Origin: Halococcus sediminicola
Lineage (GTDB): Archaea; Halobacteriota; Halobacteria; Halobacteriales; Halococcaceae
Length of the DNA stretch: 64,000 bases
Reading direction: 5' to 3'
Assembly: GCF_000755245.1 (NCBI RefSeq)
Contig: NZ_BBMP01000022.1
Coordinates: 744,001-808,000, forward strand
The position numbers were made by a program, and so were the translations under genes. Shown piece after piece: positions 1,341 through 59,460 of this stretch. How positions within the stretch are numbered: the first letter of the stretch is position 1; each line of letters opens with the position of its first letter. The notes beneath the pieces are model-generated. The model had not been told where the DNA came from, did not search any database, and saw nothing but the letters and a program-made list of their open reading frames with translations.

Positions 1341-1735
1341 TCTTCCGCGAGGGTTGTGTGAGCGGCTATTTGGTAGTTGCGAATGTCTCCGGTCATTGTG
1401 GTCCTGCTGTGCTGGTGCTGTGGGGCTATGCTGGTGCTTGTACTGACCGTGGCGCGTGCTCGTGCTCGTGTGCGAACGAAGTCTTGAGCATCGAGCGCGC
1501 ACCGGCCCGAGGGATGAGCGACGCGAACGAAGTGAGCGGAGCGAATCGGTTGGGGAGGAATGTGGCTGTCGCGGGGCGGTGGTGGGCTGACAGGTATTGA
1601 ACCGCGAGTGAATGAAATGAGCGAGCGGAAGTTTTTGGTCCAGATTTTTGCGAGGAGTGGTGGCCGACCGCAGGAAGGCCACCCGACGAGTAAAAAGGTG
1701 GGAGTTTATCCTACGGGCGGTCGGAGTGGGGGGCA
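1341..1735 (-). repeat. Intergenic repeat, copy R1 (modules A, C, D; minus orientation)
   Basis: This 395-base spacer between divergent genes (atpH leftwards, methyltransferase rightwards) holds no convincing gene. Read on the minus strand it shows module A at about 1704-1621 (T-run, TTTTTACTCGTCGGGTG, then a GGTGGCC/GGCCACC hairpin, then CTCGCAAAAATCTGGACC), module C at 1565-1541 (CCTCCCCAACCGATTCGC) and module D at about 1472-1447 (a GAGC-rich alternating tract). The same modules recur in the same order in copy R4 (48844-49084). The A-run end lies about 40 nt before the start codon of the next plus-strand gene, as in R4. The spacer must also carry the promoters of both flanking genes. Confidence 0.8.
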
Positions 1736-10740: not shown

Positions 10741-11121
10741 ATGCAACCGGGCGACCGCGACGACCGCGACCCCTTCGACGACATCTTCAGCGAGATCGAG
10801 CGGATGATGGACGGTATGATGGGTGGCAACGTCGACGTTCGAACCGACACCGTGGGCACCGACGCCCACGTCGACGTCCAGGAGGACGGCGACCTCGTGC
10901 GCGTCATCGCCGACCTGCCGGGCGTCCCGAAGGAAGCCATCGACCTCACCTGCGACGGCCGGCGCGTCACCATCGAGGCCGCGAGCGACCGTCACGAGTT
11001 CGACGAGCGCGTCTCGCTGCCGGTTCGCGTCGACGAACGGTCGGCGAACGCCACCTACAACAACGGTATCCTGGAAGTCACCTTCGAGCGCGCCGACACC
11101 TCCGCCGACATCGATCTCTAA
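10741..11121 (+). CDS. hsp20: Hsp20/alpha-crystallin small heat-shock protein
   Basis: A 126-residue small chaperone that holds unfolding proteins without ATP. A short Met-rich acidic N-terminus (MMDGMMGG) precedes the alpha-crystallin domain, seen in DVQEDGDLVRVIADLPGVPK and in the diagnostic strand region NATYNNGILEVTF near the C-terminus. A TATA-like CTTTTGT lies about 30 nt before the ATG, consistent with a leaderless mRNA. Nine nt after the stop a T-run begins that belongs to repeat copy R2. Confidence 0.92.
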   Translation: MQPGDRDDRDPFDDIFSEIERMMDGMMGGNVDVRTDTVGTDAHVDVQEDGDLVRVIADLPGVPKEAIDLTCDGRRVTIEAASDRHEFDERVSLPVRVDERSANATYNNGILEVTFERADTSADIDL

Positions 11122-11127
11122 CACGTA

Positions 11128-11352
11128 CCTTTTTACTTCGGGGGTTCGCGCACTCGCTTCGCTCGTACGCTCAACCCCTCGCAAAAATCTACGCTAAAAA
11201 CCTCCCGCTCACTCGCGCTCCGCGCTCGTTCACGGCGAACCGCGCTCGCTGCACTCGCGCGGACAGGACTGCTCCCCGCGACCGCCACGCACAGCACCGC
11301 CGAAGCCCTCAATCGCTCGTTTCACTCGCTTTTTCGCCCTTCATCCACCAGG
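11128..11352 (+). repeat. Intergenic repeat, copy R2 (modules A, B, E; plus orientation)
   Basis: The spacer between convergent hsp20 and thiL is filled by the repeat. Module A (about 11128-11210) starts with a T-run right after the hsp20 stop, has a GGGGTT/AACCCC stem and the conserved TCGCAAAAATCTACGCTAAA block. Module B (11235-11268) contains the hairpin CCGCGC/GCGCGG with an 11-nt loop. Module E (about 11288-11352) contains CACAGCACCGC, GAAGCCCTCA and CGCCCTTCATCCACCAGG, shared with copy R3. The thiL coding region begins 27 nt further right. Confidence 0.8.
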
Positions 11353-16973: not shown

Positions 16974-19136
16974 ATGCCTAATGACCAGACGATGCCACGC
17001 GACGGAGTACGCAACGATAGCGATAGCACAGAGGAGAGTTTCGCACCGAGCCGACGATCGTACCTGAAGGCCGCCGGCGCGGCCGCCGTGTCGGTACCGC
17101 TGCTCTCCGGGGAGGGGGCGGCGGCGACCGAGCGCCACGGGATCAGCTTCGACAACGTCGTGGATATGGTCGAGGCCGGCGCGGACCCGAACGGCAACGA
17201 GGCGTGTGACGGCGCGCTCCAGTCGGCCGCGGGCAGCAACACACTACTCAAGTTCCCGTCGGGAACGTACAAATTCACCGAGAAGAACGTCATTAGCGGC
17301 GGGAACGTCGGTATTCTCGGCGAGGGCGACGTCACCTTCACCGTTCCCAGCGACTTCGACGACAAGCTGCTGGCCATCAACGGTGGAACGGGCGCACTGG
17401 TCGAGAACATCACCATCGACCAGAGCGGCGCGACCCCGAACATCCAGGTCGCCCCCGACGACGGACTCGAAGTTCACGACGTCACCATCACCGGCCAGAG
17501 CCTCGAATCGAGCGACAGCGCCGAGGACGCGTTCACGCCGATGGTGCGTTCCTCCGGTGGCGAGGGGACGGTCTCGAACCTCGTCGCGCACAACGAGGGC
17601 CGGATGGGTGCCTACGCCCGCACCGGTGTCTGGATCGGCCAGGAACACGCAGGGACCGTCACGCTGCGTAACTGCAACGTCGAGGGATTCTCGAACAACG
17701 GCGTCTACGCCAGCCGCACCCCCGGCGTAGTGAAGGTCGAGGGCGGCACCTACAAGAACAACGACCTCTCGCAGGTCCGCATCGGTAGCTCGGGCAGCTA
17801 CGTCGACGGCGCGACCATCGAGACCGACGTCTCCGACAGCCGCTCGCCGAACCCCGAGGACATGCTCAACGGCTCGGGCATCCGCCTCGAAAGCGACCGC
17901 GGCGGCTCCGGTGCCGTCGTCCGCAACTGTGACATCCGCGTCGGTCCGAACGTCAACGCCGACGGCGGGATCCAGATATTCGGCAACTACGGCGAGTTCA
18001 CCATCGAAGACACGCGCGTCGAGTACAACCCGCAGGGCTACTCGATCCGCGCGAAGTCGGGCGGTTCCGGTGGCGCCACGCTCCGAAACGTGAGCGTCAC
18101 CGGCGACGCGACCGACTGGGTCGGCGTCCTCATCGAGGACCGTCCCGGAACGACCGTCGAAGGCTGCTGCATCCAGCAGACCGGCAGTGGCCGGACGGGT
18201 CTCGCGCTCGACAACTGTGACGGCAGCACGGTCACGAACTGCACCATCAACGCGAGCGCACAGGCGGTCCGCATCAACGGCGGCGGCGTGAGCGTCAGCG
18301 GGATCGAAAAGAGCGGCACCTGCCCCGCCCCGAGCCTCGGTTCGTCGAGCTACAGTGGCTCGTCCGATGACTCGTCGACGGACGAATCGTCGTCGGACGA
18401 CACTGAGAGCTCGTCGGACGATTCCGACGACTCGTCGGAGGACTCGTCGAGTGATTCCTCGGACGAGGAATCGACCGAATCGAGTGACAGTTCTAGCGAC
18501 GAGTCCGATTCGTCGGACGATTCCGACGACTCGTCGGAGGACTCGTCGAGTGATTCCTCGGAAGACGATTCGAGCGACTCCTCGAAGGACGACGGTGCAG
18601 GCTCCGACGAGGAACTGAGCGGCGACATCGATGAGTCCGAGGTTCCCGAACCCTCCGACAGCGCGAACTTCGTCGTCACCGACACCGACTCGTCGGGCGG
18701 ACGCATCCCCTACGAGGTCCAGACGAGCGGCGACATCGAGAAGGCCGGAACCGGCGACGCGACACAGGACTCGAACGACGAGATCTCCGGCAAGACCGCC
18801 TCGGGCGGCGTCAACGAGTGGCGTGACGCCTACGAGTACGAGGGCGAGATCGTCGCACTCGAAATCGAGGACCGCGCGACCATCAAGCTCGACGGCGACG
18901 AGAAGACCATCACCGTGATGGGCGACGACGACAGCGGTACCGACTACTCGCTCGAAGTCACCGGCACGCTCGAACACGCCGACGACTCGACCGATCCGAT
19001 CGCCGACGACGGCAGCTCGGTCTCGGGCGGCGTCGGCAGCTTCCGCGACGAGTACACGTACACCGGCAGCCTGCTGCAGGCGTCGATCGAGGACTCGGTC
19101 TCGATCACCACCGACCCCGAGACGCTCGAGGGGTAA
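16974..19136 (+). CDS. Tat-secreted right-handed beta-helix surface protein with Ser/Asp linker
   Basis: A 720-residue protein. A twin-arginine signal (SRRSYLKAAGAAAVS, RR at about 27-28) is followed by a parallel beta-helix region (about 60-450) with repeated Asn/Thr/Gly-rich turns such as VSNLVAHNEG, VTLRNCNVEGFSNNGVYAS and VRNCDIRVGPNVNADGG. Next come a Ser/Asp/Glu-rich linker (about 459-545) and a C-terminal region that appears to hold two related beta modules: RIPYEVQTSGDIEKAG and SGGVNEWRDAYEYEGEI, compared with YSLEVTGTLEHAD and SGGVGSFRDEYTYTGSL. Beta-helix folds of this type often bind or cleave polysaccharides, but no lyase catalytic pattern is evident. It is likely a cell-surface or cell-wall protein. 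The start could also be the ATG at 16992. Confidence 0.85.
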   Translation: MPNDQTMPRDGVRNDSDSTEESFAPSRRSYLKAAGAAAVSVPLLSGEGAAATERHGISFDNVVDMVEAGADPNGNEACDGALQSAAGSNTLLKFPSGTYKFTEKNVISGGNVGILGEGDVTFTVPSDFDDKLLAINGGTGALVENITIDQSGATPNIQVAPDDGLEVHDVTITGQSLESSDSAEDAFTPMVRSSGGEGTVSNLVAHNEGRMGAYARTGVWIGQEHAGTVTLRNCNVEGFSNNGVYASRTPGVVKVEGGTYKNNDLSQVRIGSSGSYVDGATIETDVSDSRSPNPEDMLNGSGIRLESDRGGSGAVVRNCDIRVGPNVNADGGIQIFGNYGEFTIEDTRVEYNPQGYSIRAKSGGSGGATLRNVSVTGDATDWVGVLIEDRPGTTVEGCCIQQTGSGRTGLALDNCDGSTVTNCTINASAQAVRINGGGVSVSGIEKSGTCPAPSLGSSSYSGSSDDSSTDESSSDDTESSSDDSDDSSEDSSSDSSDEESTESSDSSSDESDSSDDSDDSSEDSSSDSSEDDSSDSSKDDGAGSDEELSGDIDESEVPEPSDSANFVVTDTDSSGGRIPYEVQTSGDIEKAGTGDATQDSNDEISGKTASGGVNEWRDAYEYEGEIVALEIEDRATIKLDGDEKTITVMGDDDSGTDYSLEVTGTLEHADDSTDPIADDGSSVSGGVGSFRDEYTYTGSLLQASIEDSVSITTDPETLEG
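18411..18562 (+). repeat. 53-bp direct repeat in the Ser/Asp linker coding region
   Basis: Positions 18411-18463 and 18510-18562 are identical over 53 bp, offset by 99 bp (33 codons). The repeat keeps the reading frame and encodes the acidic Ser/Asp linker. It indicates recent internal duplication, so the linker length probably varies between strains. Confidence 0.85.
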
Positions 19137-28919: not shown

Positions 28920-29110
28920 TGCTGTCGGCGTCGTGTTCGATGCTACCGCAACGCTGCGAAAGCCGACGACAATGAGAAACCGCCACCGTACTGCACGGCC
29001 CACATTCCTCCCCAACCGATTCGCTCACTTGCTGCGCTCGTTCGCTCGTCCCTCGCGCGTTCTCCGGCCTGCGGCCGGATTCATCGCGCACCACCACCGT
29101 TGTGACGAAC
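28920..29110 (+). repeat. Intergenic repeat, partial copy R6 (module C) with hairpin
   Basis: This lies inside the 304-nt spacer between nusA and rps12, which has no gene. Module C (CCTCCCCAACCGATTCGC, about 29007-29024) is followed by GCTCGTTCGCTCGTCCCTCG-like sequence, also seen in R1 next to its module C. At 29063-29079 there is a perfect TCCGGCC/GGCCGGA hairpin with a 3-nt loop. Modules A and B are absent. A promoter for rps12 follows it. Confidence 0.65.
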
Positions 29111-35223: not shown

Positions 35224-37410
35224 ATGGGCCGACGTAAGAAGATCGTTCAGGAATGCGAGCGGCTGATGGACAATCCGGAGAACATCCGGAACATCGCCAT
35301 CGCCGCACATATCGACCACGGCAAGACCACCCTCACCGACAACCTGCTCGCGGGCGCGGGCATGATCTCCTCGGACCTCGCCGGCGAGCAGTTGGCGATG
35401 GACACCGAAGAGGACGAGCAGGAACGCGGTATCACCATCGACGCGGCGAACGTCTCGATGACCCACGAGTATCAGGACACCAACCACCTCATCAACCTCA
35501 TCGACACGCCGGGTCACGTGGACTTCGGTGGCGACGTCACGCGGGCGATGCGGGCGGTCGACGGCGCGCTGGTGGTCGTCGATGCGGTCGAGGGGACGAT
35601 GCCCCAGACCGAGACCGTGGTACGGCAGGCGCTGCGAGAAGGTGTCAAACCTGCGCTGTTCATCAACAAGGTCGATCGCCTGATCAACGAACTCCAAGAG
35701 GGGCCCGAGGAGATGCAGGAGCGCCTGCAAACCGTGATCGGCGACGTCAACGAACTCATCCGCGGGATGGCCGAGGACAAGTACGAAAACGAGGGTTGGA
35801 AGGTCTCCGTACAGGACGGCACTGTGGCCTTCGGGTCGGCGCTCTACAACTGGGCGACCAGCCTGCCCCAGATGCAGGAGACGGGCATCGACTTCGCCGA
35901 CATCATCGAGTACAACCGGAACGACAACATCGACGAACTCCGCGAGCACTCGCCGCTCTCGAACGTCGTCCTCGACATGGTCGCCGAACACTTCCCGAAC
36001 CCCGTCAAGGCCCAGCCCGAGCGGGTGCCCACCGTCTGGCGTGGCGACGACACCACCGAACTCGCCGAGGGGATGCGCCTCGTCGACGACGAGGGTGATG
36101 TCGTCTTCATGGTGACCGACATCGGTATCGATCCCCACGCCGGCGAGATCGCCACCGGACGCCTGTTTTCCGGGACTCTCGAACGCGGACAGGACCTCTA
36201 CGTCTCGGGGACTGCGGGGCAAAACCGCATCCAGTCGGTGGGTATCTTCATGGGTGGCGAGCGCGAGGAGGTCGAGCGCGTTCCCGCGGGGAACATCGCC
36301 GCCGTCACCGGGCTTCGGGACGCGATCGCCGGTTCCACAGTGTCGTCGGTCGAGATGACGCCGTTCGAGTCCATCGAGCACATCTCCGAACCGGTCATCA
36401 CGAAATCCGTCGAGGCACAGAACATGGACGACCTGCCGAAGCTCATCAAGACCCTCCAGCAGGTCTCGAAAGAAGACCCCACGATTCGAGTGGAGATCAA
36501 CGAGGACACCGGCGAGCACCTGATCTCGGGACAGGGCGAACTCCACCTCGAAGTCATCACCCAGCGCATCGAGCGCAATCAGGGCATCCCCGTGACGACT
36601 GGTGAACCGATCGTCGTCTTCCGCGAGGCCGTCCAGGAACCCTCCGAGACGGTCGAAGGCCAGTCGCCGAACCGTCACAACCGCTTTTACCTGACCGTTG
36701 AACCGCTCCCGGAGGACGTCGTCGAGACGCTCAAACGCGGCGAAGCGTCGATGGACATGCCCGAAACCGAACGCCGCGAGGCGCTTCAGGAAGCCGGCAT
36801 GGACAAGGACACCTCCCAGAACGTCGAGACTATCCACGGCACCAACATCCTCATCGACGACACGAAGGGCATCCAGCACCTCAACGAGACGATGGAACTC
36901 GTCGTCGAGGGCTGGGAAGAGGCGCTCGACGACGGTCCCCTCGCCGCCGAACCCGTTCAGGGGACCATCATCCGTCTCGAAGACGCCCGCCTGCACGAGG
37001 ACGCCATCCACCGCGGTCCGGCGCAGGTCATCCCGGCGGTCCGACAGGCCGTCCACGGCGCGCTCATCGACGGCCGTATCTCGATGCTCGAACCGATCCA
37101 GAACGTGCGTATCGACGTTCCCTCCGAACACATGGGTCCCGCTTCCGGCGAGATCCAGGGCCGCCGTGGCCGCGTCGACGACATGTATCAAGAGGGCGAT
37201 CTGATGGTCGTCGAGGGCGTCGCGCCGGTCGACGAGATGATCGGCTTTGCTTCCGACATCCGCTCGGCCACCGAGGGCCGTGCCTCGTGGAACACCGAGA
37301 ACGCCGGCTTCCAGGTGATGGCCGACAACCTCCAGCCCGACACGATCATGGAGATCCGCGAGCGCAAGGGCATGAAGCTCGAACTGCCCGCGAGCGTCGA
37401 TTACTTCTAA
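35224..37410 (+). CDS. fusA: Translation elongation factor 2
   Basis: A 728-residue GTPase that drives ribosomal translocation. It starts [17 protein letters not shown], as in archaeal EF-2. The G-domain motifs are [18 protein letters not shown] and NKVDR. The diphthamide loop [12 protein letters not shown] carries the His (about residue 596) that is modified in archaea and eukaryotes. The frame is open before 35224 but is not EF-2-like there. A TATA-like CTTTTGA about 27-33 nt upstream fits a leaderless start. A T-run of repeat copy R3 begins within 10 nt of the stop. Confidence 0.97.
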
Positions 37411-37413
37411 AAC

Positions 37414-37613
37414 CTCCACTTTTTTACTCGTCGGGTGCGCTCGCTTTGCTCGCGCACCACTCCTCGCAAAAACCTGGACTAAAAACTTCCGCTCGCAAAC
37501 CACGCGAGCGGTGAACCGCGCTCACTTCGCTCGCGCGGACAATTCCTACCACAACCCGCACAGCACCGCAGAAGCCCTCACTCCCGATGGTCGTTCGCCC
37601 TTCATCCGCCAGG
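37414..37613 (+). repeat. Intergenic repeat, copy R3 (modules A, B, E; plus orientation)
   Basis: This fills the spacer between convergent fusA and the small membrane gene. Module A (37414-37500) has the T-run, TTTTTACTCGTCGGGTG, a GGTGCGC/GCGCACC stem, CTCGCAAAAACCTGGAC and TAAAAACTTCCGCTCG. Module B (37511-37548) has the CCGCGC/GCGCGG hairpin with an 11-nt loop. Module E (37557-37613) shares CACAGCACCGCAGAAGCCC and CGCCCTTCATCCGCCAGG with copy R2. Best-preserved copy for defining the family. Confidence 0.85.
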
Positions 37614-41854: not shown

Positions 41855-41863
41855 AGTCAATGT

Positions 41864-41935
41864 GGGCTCGTAGATCAGTGGCAGATCGTCTCCTTCGCAA
41901 GGAGAAGGCCTCGGGTTCGAATCCCGACGAGTCCA
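41864..41935 (+). tRNA. tRNA-Ala (CGC)
   Basis: The 72-nt sequence starts GGGCTCGTAGATCAGTGGCA and ends CGACGAGTCCA. The acceptor pairs GGGCTCG with CGAGTCC and the discriminator is A. The anticodon loop is TTCGCAA between TCTCC and GGAGA, so the anticodon is CGC (Ala). The T-arm is CGGG-TTCGAAT-CCCG. No intron is seen. A T-run follows within 7 nt. Confidence 0.95.
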
Positions 41936-41939
41936 TCCT

Positions 41940-42030
41940 ACTTTTTGTGCGGCTTCGCTCGTCTTCGACTCGCTCAGCCGAGCAAAAACGTAGTGAAAAA
42001 CCGCACCGCTCGCCCGCCGCCACTCCAAAC
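41940..42030 (+). repeat. Degenerate repeat copy R7 after tRNA-Ala
   Basis: The order T-run, GTGCGG, GAGCAAAAACGTAGTGAAAAA, CCGCAC-CGCTCG echoes module A of the dispersed repeat (T-run, stem arm, GCAAAAAC...AAAAAC block, CCGCTC), but here the outer arms GTGCGG/CCGCAC enclose the A-rich block. It starts 5-7 nt after the tRNA and could act as its terminator. Confidence 0.4.
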
Positions 42031-45712: not shown

Positions 45713-46870
45713 CTACTCGACGCGGAGGCGTTTCGGGTAGTCGGTGAGGTTCTCGTAGCCATCCTCCGTGACGAGCACGAAGTCCTCGACGCGCACGCCG
45801 CCGACGTCCGGATGGTAGAGACCGGGTTCGATGGTGATGACGTTGCCCGCTTCGAGTTCGCCACCCTCGAAACTCAGGCTCGGCATCTCGTGGACCGCGA
45901 GCCCGACGCCGTGACCGGTTCCGTGGATGAAACCCGTCTCGGTCTCGGGGTCGTCCTTGAGTGTCGGCTCGCCGGCATCCTCGTAGACGTCACAGACCGC
46001 GTCGTGGACCGCCTCGCCCGTCGCGCCCGGCTCCACCACGTCGAGCGCCGCCTCCAGCGCCTCCTCCGAGAGGTCGTACCACTGCTCCACTCTCTCGCTC
46101 GGCTCACCCTTGACGAACGTCCGCGTCATGTCGGCGTGATACCCTGTACTAGTGCTCTGCGGAAAGATGTCGACGATGATAGGTTCGTCGGCGGGGAGGG
46201 GACCGCTGCCGTCGTTGTGCGGGTCGGCGGCGTCGGCACCGCCGGCGACGATGGTCTCGCCGGAGGTGTAGCCGTGCTGGAGCAGCGTCGTCTCGACGGC
46301 GGTCTTGACGCGCTCGGACGTGAACGGCTCGCCGTCGGTGACGAGCCGGCCGTCCTCGATGTCGGCCCCGTGGATGGCGTTCTCGGCGGCGACCATCGCG
46401 CGCTCGTTGACCCGTTGGGCTTCCCGCATCTTCTCGATTTCCTCGTCGGTCTTGACCGCACGGATGTCGACGAGGACGCCGTCTTCCTCGGCGGTCACGT
46501 CGACATCCTGCTCGCGGAGTCCGTCGGCGGTCCCGACCGGGAACCGCTCCGGGACGAGCAGCGAGTCGACGTCGTGGTCGTCGAGAAAGCGTCCGAGCAT
46601 CTCGGTACCTGCCTCGCGCCCGCCGGCGTCGTCAGCGTAGTCGGCGTGCCGAGAGACGGTCGCGGCGCGGCTCTCGGTCTTCGCGCGGCCGTATTCGAGC
46701 GCCGACACCAGAAGGTGGGTGTCGCCGTCGTAGAGCGTGACGAAGGGGTCGGGTGCGACGAACCCGGAAAGGTAGCGCTGGTCGGGGTCGTCGGAATCGG
46801 CATCGAGTAGATAGCCGTCGGCATCGTACTCGGCGAGTTCCGCGTCGAGCGCGGCGAGGTCCGGATCCAT
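45713..46870 (-). CDS. pepQ: Xaa-Pro dipeptidase-type M24 metallopeptidase
   Basis: A 385-residue aminopeptidase-P/prolidase-like enzyme. The five metal ligands of the pita-bread fold are visible: Asp in PIIVDIFPQ, Asp in YHADMTRTF, His in HGTGHGVGL, Glu in VITIEPGLY and Glu in GVRVEDFVLV. A creatinase-like N-terminal domain precedes it. It cleaves peptides with proline. The start at 46870 is divergent from the GH15 gene; the reading frame continues upstream only as an antisense shadow. Confidence 0.92.
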   Translation of the reverse strand: MDPDLAALDAELAEYDADGYLLDADSDDPDQRYLSGFVAPDPFVTLYDGDTHLLVSALEYGRAKTESRAATVSRHADYADDAGGREAGTEMLGRFLDDHDVDSLLVPERFPVGTADGLREQDVDVTAEEDGVLVDIRAVKTDEEIEKMREAQRVNERAMVAAENAIHGADIEDGRLVTDGEPFTSERVKTAVETTLLQHGYTSGETIVAGGADAADPHNDGSGPLPADEPIIVDIFPQSTSTGYHADMTRTFVKGEPSERVEQWYDLSEEALEAALDVVEPGATGEAVHDAVCDVYEDAGEPTLKDDPETETGFIHGTGHGVGLAVHEMPSLSFEGGELEAGNVITIEPGLYHPDVGGVRVEDFVLVTEDGYENLTDYPKRLRVE

Positions 46871-46951
46871 GGCGAAATTTCGACGGTGGCGACCAAAACG
46901 ATGGCGTCTCGCGGTCGGGAGCGTTATGAGGCCGCCACCGCAGCCCTCCGT

Positions 46952-48799
46952 ATGGATTTCCTCCCTATCGGCGACTACGGCGTCGTCGGCAACCTCGAAA
47001 CCTGTGCGCTCGTCGGACGCGACGGGACGGTCGACTGGTGGTGTCTCCCCCACGTCGAGTCGTCGAGCGTCTTCGCCGGCATCCTCGACCCGGACGTGGG
47101 CGGGCAGTTCACGATTCAGCCCACCGGCGAGTTCGAGAGTGATCAGGAGTACATTGAGCGGACGAACGTGCTCGAAACGGCTTTCACGACCGAATCGGGC
47201 ACGGCGACTGTCACCGACTTCATGCCGGTCGTCGGCGAGCAACAGACCCTCGACATCGCCGAGAATACCCTCTATCGGCGCGTCGAGTGCGAATCGGGGT
47301 CCGTGGAGATCGAGACGACCTTCGCGCCACGCTTCGACTACGCACGCGCCGAGACGACCGTCGAGACGGTCGATGGCGGCGTTCTCGCACACGGCAACGG
47401 CGAGGAGCTGTTCTGTCAGAGTGAGGCCACATTCGACATCGAGGACGGGACGGCGACCGGAACGGCCGATCTCGACGAGGGCGACGTTGTCTGGATCATC
47501 TGTCAGTACGGCGAGCGCGAGCGCCTTGACCGCAGGGAAGCAGAGGCGATGCGAGAGGCAACCGTCGAGTTCTGGAAGGGTTGGGTCCATCACTGTACGG
47601 ATTCGGAGCGCTGTCTGTTCTACGGGCCGTGGCACGACCTCGTGATTCGCGCGGAACTCGTACTCAAGATGTTGATGCGCCGCGAGACCAGCGCCATCGC
47701 CGCCGCGCCGACGACCTCGCTGCCCGAGGAAATCGGTGGCGAGCGCAACTGGGACTATCGGTTCAACTGGATTCGGGATGCGGCGTTCACCGTGCAGGCG
47801 CTCCACGAACTCGGCCACGCCGCGGAGGTCGAGGACTTCTTCGAGGAGTGTCTCGACCGCATCGTCGATGGCGAGTCGGGCCGCGTCGAACAGCCCTTCT
47901 ACGGGGTCGACGGCGAGGATCTCCCCGACGAGGAGGAACTCGACCACCTCGCCGGCTATCGCCACTCCTCGCCGGTGCGCATCGGCAACGCGGCTGGCGA
48001 CCAGCGCCAGCTCGACGTCTACGGCGAACTCGTCTTGGCGATTCACGAGACCACCCAGTACGGCGAGACCCTGACCGAGGAGAACTGGGACGTACTCAGG
48101 GACGTCATCGACCACGTTTGCGAGGTCTGGGACGAACCGGGCTACGGCATCTGGGAGGACCGGGCCGACCCGAAACAGTTCGTCTACTCGAAGGTGATGT
48201 GCTGGGCCGCCATCGACCGGGCGCTGACGATGGCCGCGGCGACCGACTACGAGGCCCCGACCGACGAGTGGGAATCCGTCCGCGGCGACATCGAGGAGCG
48301 CGTACTCGACGAGGGCTTCGACGAGGAGATGAACAGCTTCACGCGTTCGTTCGAGACCGACAACGTCGACGCCTCGCTGCTTCGCCTCCCTGTCGTCGGC
48401 TTCCTCGAACCGGACGACGACCGCATCGTGGGCACCATCGAGGCGGTCCAAGATCACCTCGCAACCGAGGACGGGCTTGTCTATCGCTACGACACCGACG
48501 ACGGACTCGACGGCGAGGAGAACCCGTTCGTCCTCTGCTCGTTCTGGTTGGTGGATGCGCTCGCGCTTGCCGGTCGCCGCGAGGAGGCCCGTAACCTCTA
48601 CGAGGACGTGCTCGAACACGCGACTTCGCTCGGTCTGTTCGCCGAGCAGATCGACGAGGAGACCGGCGAGCAGCGAGGCAATTTCCCGCAGGCGTTCAGC
48701 CATCTCGGCCTCATCAACAGCGCCATCTACGTCAGCGAGGGCGCAGACCCCCGGACTCCGACCCCCATCGGCGTCGATGCGCCCGACAGCACCAGCTGA
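46952..48799 (+). CDS. Glycoside hydrolase family 15 (glucoamylase/trehalase-like)
   Basis: A 615-residue protein. It begins MDFLPIGDYGVVGNLETCAL, as in GH15 proteins, with the substrate-site segments GERNWDYRFNWIRDAAFTVQ, PGYGIWEDRADPKQFVYSK (catalytic Glu region) and NFPQAFSHLGLINSA near the C-terminus. It has no signal peptide, so it acts on intracellular alpha-glucans or trehalose. I preferred the ATG at 46952 over a GTG at 46886 and an ATG at 46901, because the family sequence starts here. Which glycoside is the substrate cannot be decided. Confidence 0.88.
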   Translation: MDFLPIGDYGVVGNLETCALVGRDGTVDWWCLPHVESSSVFAGILDPDVGGQFTIQPTGEFESDQEYIERTNVLETAFTTESGTATVTDFMPVVGEQQTLDIAENTLYRRVECESGSVEIETTFAPRFDYARAETTVETVDGGVLAHGNGEELFCQSEATFDIEDGTATGTADLDEGDVVWIICQYGERERLDRREAEAMREATVEFWKGWVHHCTDSERCLFYGPWHDLVIRAELVLKMLMRRETSAIAAAPTTSLPEEIGGERNWDYRFNWIRDAAFTVQALHELGHAAEVEDFFEECLDRIVDGESGRVEQPFYGVDGEDLPDEEELDHLAGYRHSSPVRIGNAAGDQRQLDVYGELVLAIHETTQYGETLTEENWDVLRDVIDHVCEVWDEPGYGIWEDRADPKQFVYSKVMCWAAIDRALTMAAATDYEAPTDEWESVRGDIEERVLDEGFDEEMNSFTRSFETDNVDASLLRLPVVGFLEPDDDRIVGTIEAVQDHLATEDGLVYRYDTDDGLDGEENPFVLCSFWLVDALALAGRREEARNLYEDVLEHATSLGLFAEQIDEETGEQRGNFPQAFSHLGLINSAIYVSEGADPRTPTPIGVDAPDSTS

Positions 48800-48843
48800 G
48801 GCGAGCATTCGAAGCCGGATAGCTGGTGTTTCCCTGGCGGTTG

Positions 48844-49084
48844 CCGTGGCGCGCGCTCGCGCTCGTGTGTGAGGAACGGCGAGCACTGAGCGCGAACACC
48901 GTGCGAATCGGCTGGGGAGGTATGTGGGCGGTGCGGTACTGAAGAAGAATCGTCCGCGCGAACGGAGTGAGCGCGGTTCACTGCGAACGAGCGTGCAGCG
49001 CGAATGAGCAGGAGTTTTTAGTCCAGGTTTTTGCGAGGAGTGGTGCACGCTCCGCGCGCACCCGACGAGTAAAAAAGTGGGAGT
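48844..49084 (-). repeat. Intergenic repeat, copy R4 (modules A, B, C, D; minus orientation)
   Basis: It lies in the 322-nt spacer between GH15 and aroA, which has no gene. Read on the minus strand: module A (49084-49005: T-run, TTTTTACTCGTCGGGTG, GGTGCGC/GTGCACC stem with one G-U pair, CTCGCAAAAACCTGGAC), module B (48980-48951, CCGCGC/GCGCGG hairpin), module C (48928-48903, CCTCCCCAGCCGATTCGC) and module D (48872-48844, GAGCGCGAGCGCGCGCCAC). The A-run end is about 40 nt before the aroA ATG, as R1 is before its methyltransferase gene. Confidence 0.85.
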
Positions 49085-49121: not shown

Positions 49122-50414
49122 ATGAACGCCGACATCGGGGCTTCGCGCGTGAGCGGCACGGTCCGAGCACCGCCGTCGAAGAGCTACACCCATCGGGCGA
49201 TCCTGGCGGCGGGCTACGGTGACGGCACCACGCGGATCGAGCGGCCGCTCGTCTCCGCCGACACGCGTGCGACGGCGCGGGCTGTCGCAGCGTTCGGCGG
49301 GCGTGTCGAGGGCCTCGCGGACGACAGCGAGCGCGTCGAGATCGAGGGATTCGGCCGTCCTCACACACCGGGAGACGTCGTCGACTGTGCCAACAGCGGA
49401 ACGACGATGCGCCTCGTCACGGCGACGGCGGCGCTCGCCGAGGGGTTGACGGTGCTCACCGGCGACGGATCGCTGCGCTCGCGCCCGCACGGGCCGCTGC
49501 TCGCTGCGATCGAGGGTCTGGGCGGACGCGCCGAGAGCACGCGTGCGAACGGGCAGGCCCCGCTCGTGATCGGCGGACCGGTGGACGGGGGGCGGGTTTC
49601 GATGCCCGGCGACGTCTCCTCGCAGTTCGTGACCGCGCTCTTGATGGCCGGCGCGCGCTCGGAAGATGGAATCGAGATCGACCTCGAAACCGAACTGAAA
49701 TCCGCGCCGTACGTCGACATCACTCGGGAGTTGCTCGCCGATTTCGGCGTCGAGACCGAGGTTAAGGAGAGTGGTTTCGCGGTCGGGGGTGGGCAAGCCT
49801 ACGATGCGGACGGCCAGTATCGCGTGCCGGGCGATTTCTCCTCAATGTCGTATCTGCTCGCCGCGGGCGCGCTCGCGGCCGACGGCGAACTCTCCGTGGA
49901 GGGTGCGCGGCCGAGTGCGCAGGGCGACAGTGCCATCGTCGGAATCCTCGAACGGATGGGCGCGGACATCGCGTGGAACCGTGAGGACGGTACGATCTCG
50001 ATCGCGCGCACGGGTTTGCAAGGTATCGAGATCGACGTCGGCGACACGCCCGACCTCCTGCCGACGCTCGCCGTTCTCGGGGCCGCGGCCACCGGCGAGA
50101 CGCGGCTCGTGAACGCCGAGCACGTGCGCTACAAGGAGACCGACCGCGTGAGCGCGATGGCCGACGAACTCGAAGCGATGGGCGCGAGCGTCACCGAACG
50201 GGAGGATTCACTCACGATACACGGCGACCGGTCGAGTCTCCGGGGCGCACGCATCGACGGTTGGGGTGACCACCGCATCGTGATGGCGCTCGCGGTCGCC
50301 GGACTGATCGCCGAGGGGACGACCACCATCGTCGGCGCGGAACACGTCGACGTCTCCTTTCCGGGATTTTTCGACGTGCTCGACGAGGCCGGTGCCGACG
50401 TGAGCCTCGACTGA
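49122..50414 (+). CDS. aroA: 3-phosphoshikimate 1-carboxyvinyltransferase (EPSP synthase)
   Basis: A 430-residue enzyme of the shikimate pathway that joins phosphoenolpyruvate and shikimate 3-phosphate. It shows [86 protein letters not shown] and [13 protein letters not shown], the usual active-site set. It is followed by aroC after 56 nt, so the two steps before chorismate are adjacent. The transcript may start in or after repeat R4. Confidence 0.95.
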
Positions 50415-57763: not shown

Positions 57764-59197
57764 ATGACCGGCGGTACCGACTCCACGCGCCCGTCCGCCG
57801 GCCTGTTCTCGCTGCGGCAGGTCCTCGCTATCGGCTGGGTGACGCTCACCACGGTCGTCTTTTTCAATGTCCTGATCAAGCTCGTCGATCGCCAGTTGTT
57901 CGGCACGAACACTCGGATCCCGAAGTTCTGGCCGCTCAGCAAGTTCACCCTCCGCATCGAGCGACTCCCCATGCCGGAGGCCCCGCTGCTCGCTGCCATG
58001 GCGCTCGCGGTCTTCGTCGTGGCGACCGTCTACCTGCTCCGCACCGACCGCACCTCCGTCGTTCCGGTCGTCATCGCCGGCGTCGCTCTCCTCGTGCTCA
58101 CGACGCTCACCCACGGCGTCGGACCGGGCCTGCTCAGGCCGCTCTCGGCACCCGGGAGCTACGAGCGAGCGGCCATCGGCATCGCCGATCCCGGGGGGTA
58201 CTACGAGGCCGCCGTCACGGTGACCGACCCCGTCCGGTTCCTCGAAACGTTCGAACAGCGTCAGCTGAGTCTGCCGCTGCACGCACGCACCCACCCGCCG
58301 GGCGCGGTGTTCACTTTCTATCTCTTCGAGGTACTGCTTCCCTCCTCGCTCGCCGTCTCGCTCGCCGTCGGGGGTCTCTCGCTCGCGCTCGCGGCGGTCC
58401 TTCTCTTCGGCGTGCTCGAAACGTACTATCCCCGGGATGTCGCTCAGTTCACGACGTTTCTGTTCGTGCTTTTGCCCGCGATTCAGATCTACGCGCTGAC
58501 GACGCTCGACATCGTGATCACGGTCGTGATGCTCGGGGCGATCTACTGCTTCACGCGCGAATCGCAACTCGTCGCGGCACTCGGTACGCTCGCCTGCGTG
58601 TTCGTCGCTTCGACACAGACGTTCGTCTTCGTCTTCATCGTTCCTGTGCTCGCCGCGCTCGCGGCCATCCGCCCCGCGAAACGCCGTCCGCTCGTGGTCG
58701 TCCTCGTCGGGCTGGTCGGTGCGTACGTCCTGCTCGCGGTCGTCTTCGGCTTCGACTATCTGGATTCGTTCGCCATCGCCTCCCAGCAGCAAAACCCCGA
58801 AGGCTTTCTCCTCTTCGCCGAGCCGCTGCGCTATCTCTACACGCGCATCGAGGACGTCGCCGAGATCGTCCTCTTTTTCACGCCGTATCTGGGCCTGCTC
58901 GCGTTCGCCGGCGCGCGTGTTCTCTGGCGAAGCGCACGCGGCCTCAGCACACACGACCGCGAGCCGCTCGTGCTGTTCGGCGCTGCGGTCGTCTCCATTC
59001 TGGGCCTGTTCGCCGGCGGCGTCTATCACACCGGCGAGACCGCTCGCGGCGCGCTCTTCGTCTATCCGTTTTTGCTGATTCCGGTCGCCGCCGCGCTCCG
59101 GGCCGCCGACGCTACCGCGCGTCGGAAGGCGTTGCTGGCGGCAGCGGTGTTCGGGCAGGCATTGTTGATGCAACTCGTCGGCGATTACTGGTGGTAA
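57764..59197 (+). CDS. Polytopic membrane protein, GT-C/GT39-like
   Basis: A 477-residue protein with about eleven hydrophobic helices. Between them are extracellular loops such as QRQLSLPLHARTHPPGAVFT, whose His/Pro/Gly motif is like those of PMT/GT39-type and related GT-C transferases that use polyprenyl-phosphate sugars; the DE motif typical of the first loop is not obvious. It could transfer sugar from a prenyl-phosphate donor to the surface. It is next to genes for prenyl-phospho-pentose synthesis and flipping (59461-63258). Confidence 0.7.
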   Translation: MTGGTDSTRPSAGLFSLRQVLAIGWVTLTTVVFFNVLIKLVDRQLFGTNTRIPKFWPLSKFTLRIERLPMPEAPLLAAMALAVFVVATVYLLRTDRTSVVPVVIAGVALLVLTTLTHGVGPGLLRPLSAPGSYERAAIGIADPGGYYEAAVTVTDPVRFLETFEQRQLSLPLHARTHPPGAVFTFYLFEVLLPSSLAVSLAVGGLSLALAAVLLFGVLETYYPRDVAQFTTFLFVLLPAIQIYALTTLDIVITVVMLGAIYCFTRESQLVAALGTLACVFVASTQTFVFVFIVPVLAALAAIRPAKRRPLVVVLVGLVGAYVLLAVVFGFDYLDSFAIASQQQNPEGFLLFAEPLRYLYTRIEDVAEIVLFFTPYLGLLAFAGARVLWRSARGLSTHDREPLVLFGAAVVSILGLFAGGVYHTGETARGALFVYPFLLIPVAAALRAADATARRKALLAAAVFGQALLMQLVGDYWW

Positions 59198-59202
59198 GAC
59201 CC

Positions 59203-59412
59203 ATCTTTTGCTGCACTCAGTCGCGCTACGTGCTCCTTCGCTGGCAAAATCTGGACCAAAAGCCGTCGTCACCTCCTTTGGAGGTTCCTCGGCCCGCTCG
59301 CTCACTCACTCCGTTCGCTCGCGGTTCGATAACTACCCGCTACCACACCGCGACAGCCACACACCTCCCCAACCGATTCGCTATCGCTCACACACGAGCG
59401 CGAGCGCGCGCC
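59203..59412 (+). repeat. Intergenic repeat, copy R5 (degenerate module A, modules C and D)
   Basis: It fills the 263-nt spacer between convergent genes. A degenerate module A begins with CTTTTG 9 nt after the stop of the membrane gene and keeps TGGCAAAATCTGGACCAAAA. ACTCCGTTCGCTCGCGGTTC resembles B or its flank. Module C (59357-59381, CACACCTCCCCAACCGATTC) and module D (59387-59412, CACACACGAGCGCGAGCGCG) follow in the same order as in R1 and R4 read on their minus strand. Confidence 0.65.
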
Positions 59413-59460
59413 AACAGCAGGTAGTATGTCATGGCTTGACCACCGCAGCCCGGACCAATA

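Follow-up and report, generated by a model that had tools for sequence, protein, structure and literature searches.

The EF-2 gene (35224-37410) of Halococcus sediminicola is followed, 3 nt past its stop codon, by a noncoding block that recurs behind and between other genes. This raises the question of what such a block is and what it might do at these positions. We analyzed the surrounding window of 64 kb (C22:744001-808000; the draft genome totals 3.76 Mb and is split into 27 contigs), in which the encoded EF-2 is 96% identical to that of Halococcus morrhuae. A sequence-only reading of the window had named blocks A to E, described a dispersed, modular family of seven intergenic copies, and left open whether it was a MITE/REP-like element, a chromosome-organizing site, or a small-RNA or terminator family. 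The named blocks are present at every place that it gave (Table 1), and within the window exact or near-exact A motifs are confined to these copies. Behind EF-2, module A reads CCAC-TTTTTT-ACTCGTCG-GG..hairpin..CC-ACTCCTCGC-AAAAA-CC-TGGACT-AAAAA.

Table 1. Modules of the repeat family in the 64-kb window, and the IS200-type loci elsewhere in the genome.
Feature	Position	Strand	Basis or remark
Copy R1, module A	1626..1703	-	covariance model R1, 88.6 bits
Copy R1, module C	1541..1558	-	exact match
Copy R2, module A	11124..11206	+	covariance model R1, 56.4 bits
Copy R2, module E	11290..11346	+	pattern search
Lone module C and following hairpin	29007..29024	+	exact match
Copy R3, module A	37414..37491	+	covariance model R1, 98.9 bits; sequence
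Copy R3, module B, hairpins CCGCTCG..CGAGCGG and CCGCGC..GCGCGG	37487..37543	+	sequence reading; order analysis
Copy R3, module E, CACAGCACCGCAGAAGCCCTC-hairpin-GCCCTTCATCC, Halococcus-specific tail	37559..37607	+	pattern search; hairpin grammar
Diverged A-type core, CTAC-TTTTT-hairpin-AAAAA-CGTAG-TG-AAAAA	41940..42000	+	sequence; below reach of covariance model R1
Copy R6, module A	49009..49082	-	covariance model R1, 82.5 bits
Copy R6, module B hairpin	48947..48984	-	inverted repeat of 37508-37545, 89%
Copy R6, module C	48903..48920	-	1 mismatch
Copy R6, module D	48847..48882	-	inverted repeat of 59378-59413, 89%
Copy R7, degenerate module A (TTTT..GCAAAATCTGGACCAAAAG)	59203..59262	+	sequence; genes
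Copy R7, module C	59364..59381	+	exact match
Copy R7, module D	59378..59413	+	inverted repeat with 48847-48882
Four IS200-type Y1 transposases (PF01797)	C23:153200-158053 and C3:3320-3670		57-58% GC surroundings; contigs without family copies

The A copies in the window occupy two kinds of site. Two of them separate divergent genes: the copy at 1341-1704 (genes 1014-1340 on the minus and 1736-2356 on the plus strand), whose A end adjoins the TATA-like TTTATCC of the plus-strand gene, and the copy at 48844-49084 (genes 45713-48808 on the minus and 49122-50414 on the plus strand). The other A copies lie behind the 3' ends of genes or a tRNA. For example, module A of R2 stands 2 nt behind the stop codon of an HSP20 gene (10741-11121, Pfam HSP20) and that of R7 behind a stop codon at 59197, both in convergent pairs. 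The block at 41940-42030, described before as a fragment, is indeed there but carries a complete, though diverged, A core (outer stem CTAC/GTAG) directly behind tRNA-Ala (41863-41938). Because this complete core was missed by our covariance model, A-type cores are undercounted. Module C (CCTCCCCAACCGATTCGC) is present at 1541(-), 29007(+), 48903(-) and 59364(+). The window also holds tandem repeats inside a gene (18411-18604), which encode a Ser/Asp-rich stretch near the end of gene 16992-19136.

The family extends far beyond the window. The 200-nt query 37414-37613 gave 54 matches in the genome, and a covariance model of block A (R1) gave at least 55 at E <= 0.0031 (150 of 3429 candidates scored), so that the figure of seven copies was too low. 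Blocks A and C are more than chance matches: 484 kb of sequence contains the pattern T5-N-A5-N-A5 18 times and none of five permuted patterns, and the C pattern, at up to 3 mismatches, has 38 genome matches compared to 1 for the reversed pattern. Block D (GAGCGCGAGCGCG) was considered as a specific module and is weak as one, its core sequence being common in genes, where it has many matches with 1-2 mismatches. The modular character and single module order held across 57 genome copies, which are arranged as A-(B)-E or A-(B)-C(-D), with one copy read as A-C-D-B. The A-B-E arrangement accounts for 37 of the 57; E and C never occur together in one copy, and both follow A on the same strand, never on the opposite one.

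Module A is found across the class, whereas its tails are more restricted. Among 116 Halobacteria genomes, model R1 matches 97, which represent 40 of the 45 genera (E <= 0.01); in a sample of the phylum it matches 26 of 33 same-order genomes. Tail C (CCTCCCCARCCGATTCGC, at most 1 mismatch) is present in 40 of the 116 genomes and 18 of the 45 genera, with up to about 35 copies per genome and 0 matches for a reversed control. Tail E is essentially limited to Halococcus (35, 35 and 46 copies), with one single match elsewhere. Beyond the order, module A matches came from ten genomes only, all in a single family (f14); these matches are weak (E 6e-5 to 7e-4) and may be chance or a distant relative.

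What is conserved in module A is its folded shape, while the letters change. On the top strand, defined as the strand of the upstream gene, the first half consists of an outer trinucleotide, 2 nt, T5, ACTC(S)TCG and GG..apical hairpin..CC, and the second half of ACTC(S')TCGC, A5, 2 nt, the complementary trinucleotide, 3 nt and another A5; the outer stems of the core are inverted. The two A5 tracts are 8 nt apart (A5-N8-A5), which gives U5-N8-U5 on the opposite strand. The outer trinucleotides, whose letters were parsed independently of the model structure, complement each other completely in 69 of the 87 distinct copies; with shuffled partners the average is 28.7 and the highest value 38. They fall into seven types (CCA/TGG, GTA/TAC, GCA/TGC, GAA/TTC, CGA/TCG, GGA/TCC and CTA/TAG). 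RNAalifold on a MAFFT alignment returned the apical stem only; the longer structure was named by hand and then tested. Over 94 distinct aligned rows, 85.2% of pairs in the whole structure are standard. The covariation score of these rows is 0.273, compared to 0.070 for shuffled versions (0 of 500 shuffles as high) and at most 0.059 for slid versions. Both figures lean to the model because the alignment was fitted to it. The outer and apical stems covary. The T5:A5 stem is paired as well, but its pairs practically never swap to other pairs, whereas neighboring pairs do, and the second A5 is kept although it has no partner in the model. We read this invariance, together with the kept second A5, as pointing to a requirement for T-tracts as sequence on both strands.

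The fold has a strict strand polarity. The bottom strand, opposite the T-run, is the better folder in 86 of 87 copies with RNA parameters and in 84 of 87 with DNA parameters. Its hairpins follow a grammar of a tandem GA/GA mismatch, exactly 2 bp and a GNA triloop. In module A, 73 of 75 apical loops are triloops, and 59 of the loops are GNA, 52 of them on the bottom and 7 on the top strand. Of 50 tandem mismatches, 44 are TC/TC when read on the top strand and hence GA/GA on the bottom strand; 43 lie exactly 2 bp from the loop. Tail E, which is unrelated to A, repeats the same grammar: among 81 distinct hairpins there are 71 triloops, TC/TC makes up 52 of 60 tandem mismatches, and 47 of 49 are 2 bp from the loop. 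Counts of loops on perfect stems give no clear excess, and the grammar becomes visible once 2x2 mismatches are allowed. Among hairpins that combine a 4-bp stem, a 2x2 mismatch, 2 bp and a triloop, the mismatch is GA/GA in 39 of 70 intergenic cases, a set enriched for the family since part of the DNA was taken around copies, compared to 9 of 268 coding cases.

These features suggest that the folded molecule is bottom-strand DNA. Tandems of 5'-GA-3'/3'-AG-5' form sheared pairs. RNA hairpins usually prefer tetraloops, and the loops here are triloops; because RNA energy parameters also favor the bottom strand, the DNA reading rests on loop size. DNA mini-hairpins of the d(GCGAAGC) type, in which two or more G-C pairs close a GNA or GNNA loop, are ultra-stable and contain a sheared G-A pair in the loop (PMC4686876). 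The family shares with them the 2 bp, the GNA triloop and the sheared G-A pair. The mini-hairpins are known mainly as a biophysical motif, whereas here the motif is a class-wide genomic feature joined to a tandem GA/GA. A GA-GNA hairpin 15-mer, GCGAACGNAGTGAGC, also occurs in 11 and 5 copies in two genomes of a family outside the order (G185 and G206, family f12), with 0 for the control; this second lineage may use the same hairpin grammar.

The position of module A relative to genes is exact. For 35 of the 57 copies whose flanks were long enough, the start of A is -4 to +14 nt away from the stop codon of the neighboring gene on the T-run side, and a further copy (L008) follows a tRNA; as the sequence-only reading had it, copies are intergenic. 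The arrangement of flanking genes is codirectional at 23 copies, convergent at 18, divergent at 10 and other at 6, and 8 of the 10 divergent copies begin 32-52 nt before a start codon. Upstream genes assigned by Pfam include M50 peptidase, EF-2, PCNA, SUI1, TRAM, Rad51/RadA, Fe-S assembly, 2Fe-2S ferredoxin, TFS-type and HSP20; others we take from sequence reading to be aconitase, citrate synthase, succinate dehydrogenase, thermosome, DNA polymerase B, a Cdc48-like protein and others. Most are core genes that are presumed to be highly expressed. In the 3' flanks of EF-2 from 74 haloarchaeal genomes, a sample chosen independently of the model, the architecture occurs in 16, 5-11 nt behind the stop codon, and a mirrored control in 0; this is far above chance for a few dozen copies per genome.

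We propose that module A serves haloarchaea at large as a bidirectional terminator/insulator of transcription with a folded DNA hairpin at its center, a reading to which we would give an even chance. The proposal builds on invariant T-tracts that enter the hairpin from both sides, and on precedents in other archaea. T-stretches are intergenic terminators in Haloferax (PMC7237163), and in Methanococcus good binding of aCPSF1 requires two U-tracts, which also give the highest termination (PMC8716108). The family resembles these U-tract terminators in having T4-T6 right behind genes (a U4-U6 tract directly downstream of the gene at 35 of the 57 copies and in the 16 EF-2 flanks) and two U-tracts in one direction. 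The known terminators are described without a required hairpin. In the family, by contrast, a covarying hairpin stands between the T-tracts, the architecture is fixed, the copies carry repeat-family tails, and the layout is bidirectional. The plus-strand T5 lies about 6-12 nt behind the stop codon on one side of the imperfect hairpin, and the minus strand presents its two T5 tracts, 8 nt apart, on the other. In the proposed mechanism, RNA polymerase arriving from either side would transcribe a U-tract on meeting the hairpin or cruciform, which could act as a barrier that holds it on the U-tract, and would then release. In divergent regions, the element would keep two promoters apart. The accessory tails (E, or C-D) would be lineage-specific additions.

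Among the options considered at the outset, a terminator-type element fits best because the T-tracts are invariant in sequence and stand directly behind stop codons. Some observations count against it. Ten of the 57 copies lie between divergent genes, and a strand-polar GA/GNA fold with 100-nt tails does not obviously meet any need of a terminator. In addition, where a gene of this genome has no A, a T5 within 80 nt is usually missing as well (16 T5 starts in 125 flanks), so that T5 is not a universal stop here. In C22:1-420000 and the window, TTTTT is also concentrated 21-30 nt upstream of start codons, a zone that holds 12 of the 24 occurrences within the final 100 nt; leaderless genes with T-rich TATA boxes would be expected to show this. 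Because termination alone does not explain the long tails and the strict strand polarity, there is room for a process that involves single-stranded DNA.

Copies of the family are rearrangement breakpoints in chromosomes. In two other Halococcus genomes, the junction of gene and copy is often kept and the downstream gene is not: the neighbor is kept at 9 of 35 copy junctions compared to 16 of 30 other gaps of at least 100 nt (Fisher p = 0.04), and across 41 of 48 short gaps. Six of 10 broken junctions with a conserved upstream copy continue into DNA that follows another copy of our genome on the same strand, against a background of 0.025; since two pairs are common to both species, the six represent four independent cases. 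A chromosome-organizing side effect is therefore real, since copies act as breakpoints. Orthologous copies differ in subtype, outer stem and hairpin yet stay paired (for example, GTACC/GCTAC in one species and GAACG/CGTTC in another). The simplest reading is that copies spread and become homogenized by recombination or gene conversion between them, which would produce the breakpoints, and that selection maintains pairing.

One alternative is that the family is a REP- or PATE-like element that moved as single-stranded DNA, its folded bottom strand being the substrate of an HUH (Y1/RAYT-type) transposase and its sites behind stop codons merely tolerated. We consider this unlikely, although it would account for the imperfect hairpins with one strand polarity throughout A and E, for the 50-odd similar copies and for the modular tails. 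The placement within a few nt of housekeeping stop codons is very exact for such an element, and orthologous sites persist although their outer stems and hairpins differ between species. Comparison of orthologous sites showed neither a clean empty site nor a target duplication, and flanks that have no copy are too diverged to reveal a duplication. All 55 A matches listed are on seven contigs that hold core genes (C22, C7, C26, C6, C11, C21 and C2; 2.37 Mb in sum), and the remaining 1.39 Mb has 0 among the matches listed where about 20 would be expected under an even spread. The four Y1 transposases are on copy-free contigs, and as candidate parents they failed: none of the four PF01797 loci has A, BLAST or covariance-model matches. 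With no parent transposon found at these loci, 1.39 Mb without copies among the matches listed and positions that follow upstream housekeeping genes, the MITE/REP option is less likely.

Like the REP/BIME and GTAG/CGTC-tagged repeats of bacteria, the family is made up of numerous short palindromes that are imperfect, intergenic and frequently placed 3' of genes (PMC3733652, PMC2817692). The defining tag at the hairpin end is different: GTAG is absent from alignments A1 and A2, and the CGTC-like part varies between G and C (ACTCSTCG); CGTC occurs in one S variant only. A Y1 (IS200/IS605-type) gene flanked by repeats was not found at the four PF01797 loci, and no linked RAYT was found. The paired T5/A5, the GA/GNA grammar and the one main orientation relative to the upstream gene further set the family apart. 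PATEs and SMRs of Haloquadratum walsbyi are haloarchaeal, transposase-free repeats that contain palindromes, near-terminal in PATEs (PMC3119063). PATE palindromes match IS605-type ends, whereas the family has no significant match to the IS200-type loci compared, and its copies follow core genes. We infer that the family works like a terminator, resembles REPs in form and fails on the REP and PATE features examined. Integron attC sites are imperfect bottom-strand hairpins directly behind a stop codon, with a variable apical part, R and L boxes and an integrase gene. The family shares the bottom-strand hairpin behind the stop codon and the variable apical part, but is dispersed behind housekeeping genes, and no cassette array was seen.

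No described family matches, as the sequence-only reading had suspected. A scan of the window against Rfam at gathering score returned tRNAs only, and nothing was found in the open-access literature searched; neither the RepRanger paper nor a paper on palindromic repeats (PMC3733652) has a word starting with 'halo' in its text. The 'intergenic repeats' of virus HF1 and pL6 (PMC7230728, PMC11431627) were considered and rejected as AT-rich promoter repeats or unrelated. There is a fair chance that the module A family is new in its DNA-hairpin part.

Two further explanations fare worse. Copies could be topological sites that absorb or relieve supercoils behind strongly expressed genes, as E. coli BIMEs do with gyrase. 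They are capable of forming cruciforms, are limited to core-gene contigs, and lie behind genes presumed to be highly expressed and between divergent promoters; such a role would leave the invariant T5 tracts on both strands unexplained, and we think it quite improbable. Least credible is a transcribed bottom strand with hairpins that act in RNA, in the 3' UTR of a convergent gene or as a small RNA: that strand has a good RNA fold (surpassing the top strand in 86 of 87 copies), tandem GA pairs are good in RNA too and 18 of 57 copies are between convergent genes, but the mixed arrangements (23/18/10/6) offer no consistent promoter or host transcript, the loops are triloops with RNA-type tetraloops rare, and the window scan found no Rfam family.

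Returning to the bidirectional terminator/insulator, archaeal terminators are, to our knowledge, not regarded as needing a hairpin, and we know of few cases in which selection on structured DNA could be demonstrated. In this family, many natural variants directly display the covariation, the strand polarity and the loop grammar, which makes a role of folded DNA in ending transcription testable. The copies also provide named recombination breakpoints that help explain rearrangement of haloarchaeal chromosomes. We speculate, as a tentative possibility with the balance against it, that the GA/GA-2 bp-GNA DNA hairpin represents a new class of signal, selected on one strand across haloarchaea, that makes U-tract termination bidirectional and fixes gene boundaries while chromosomes rearrange there.
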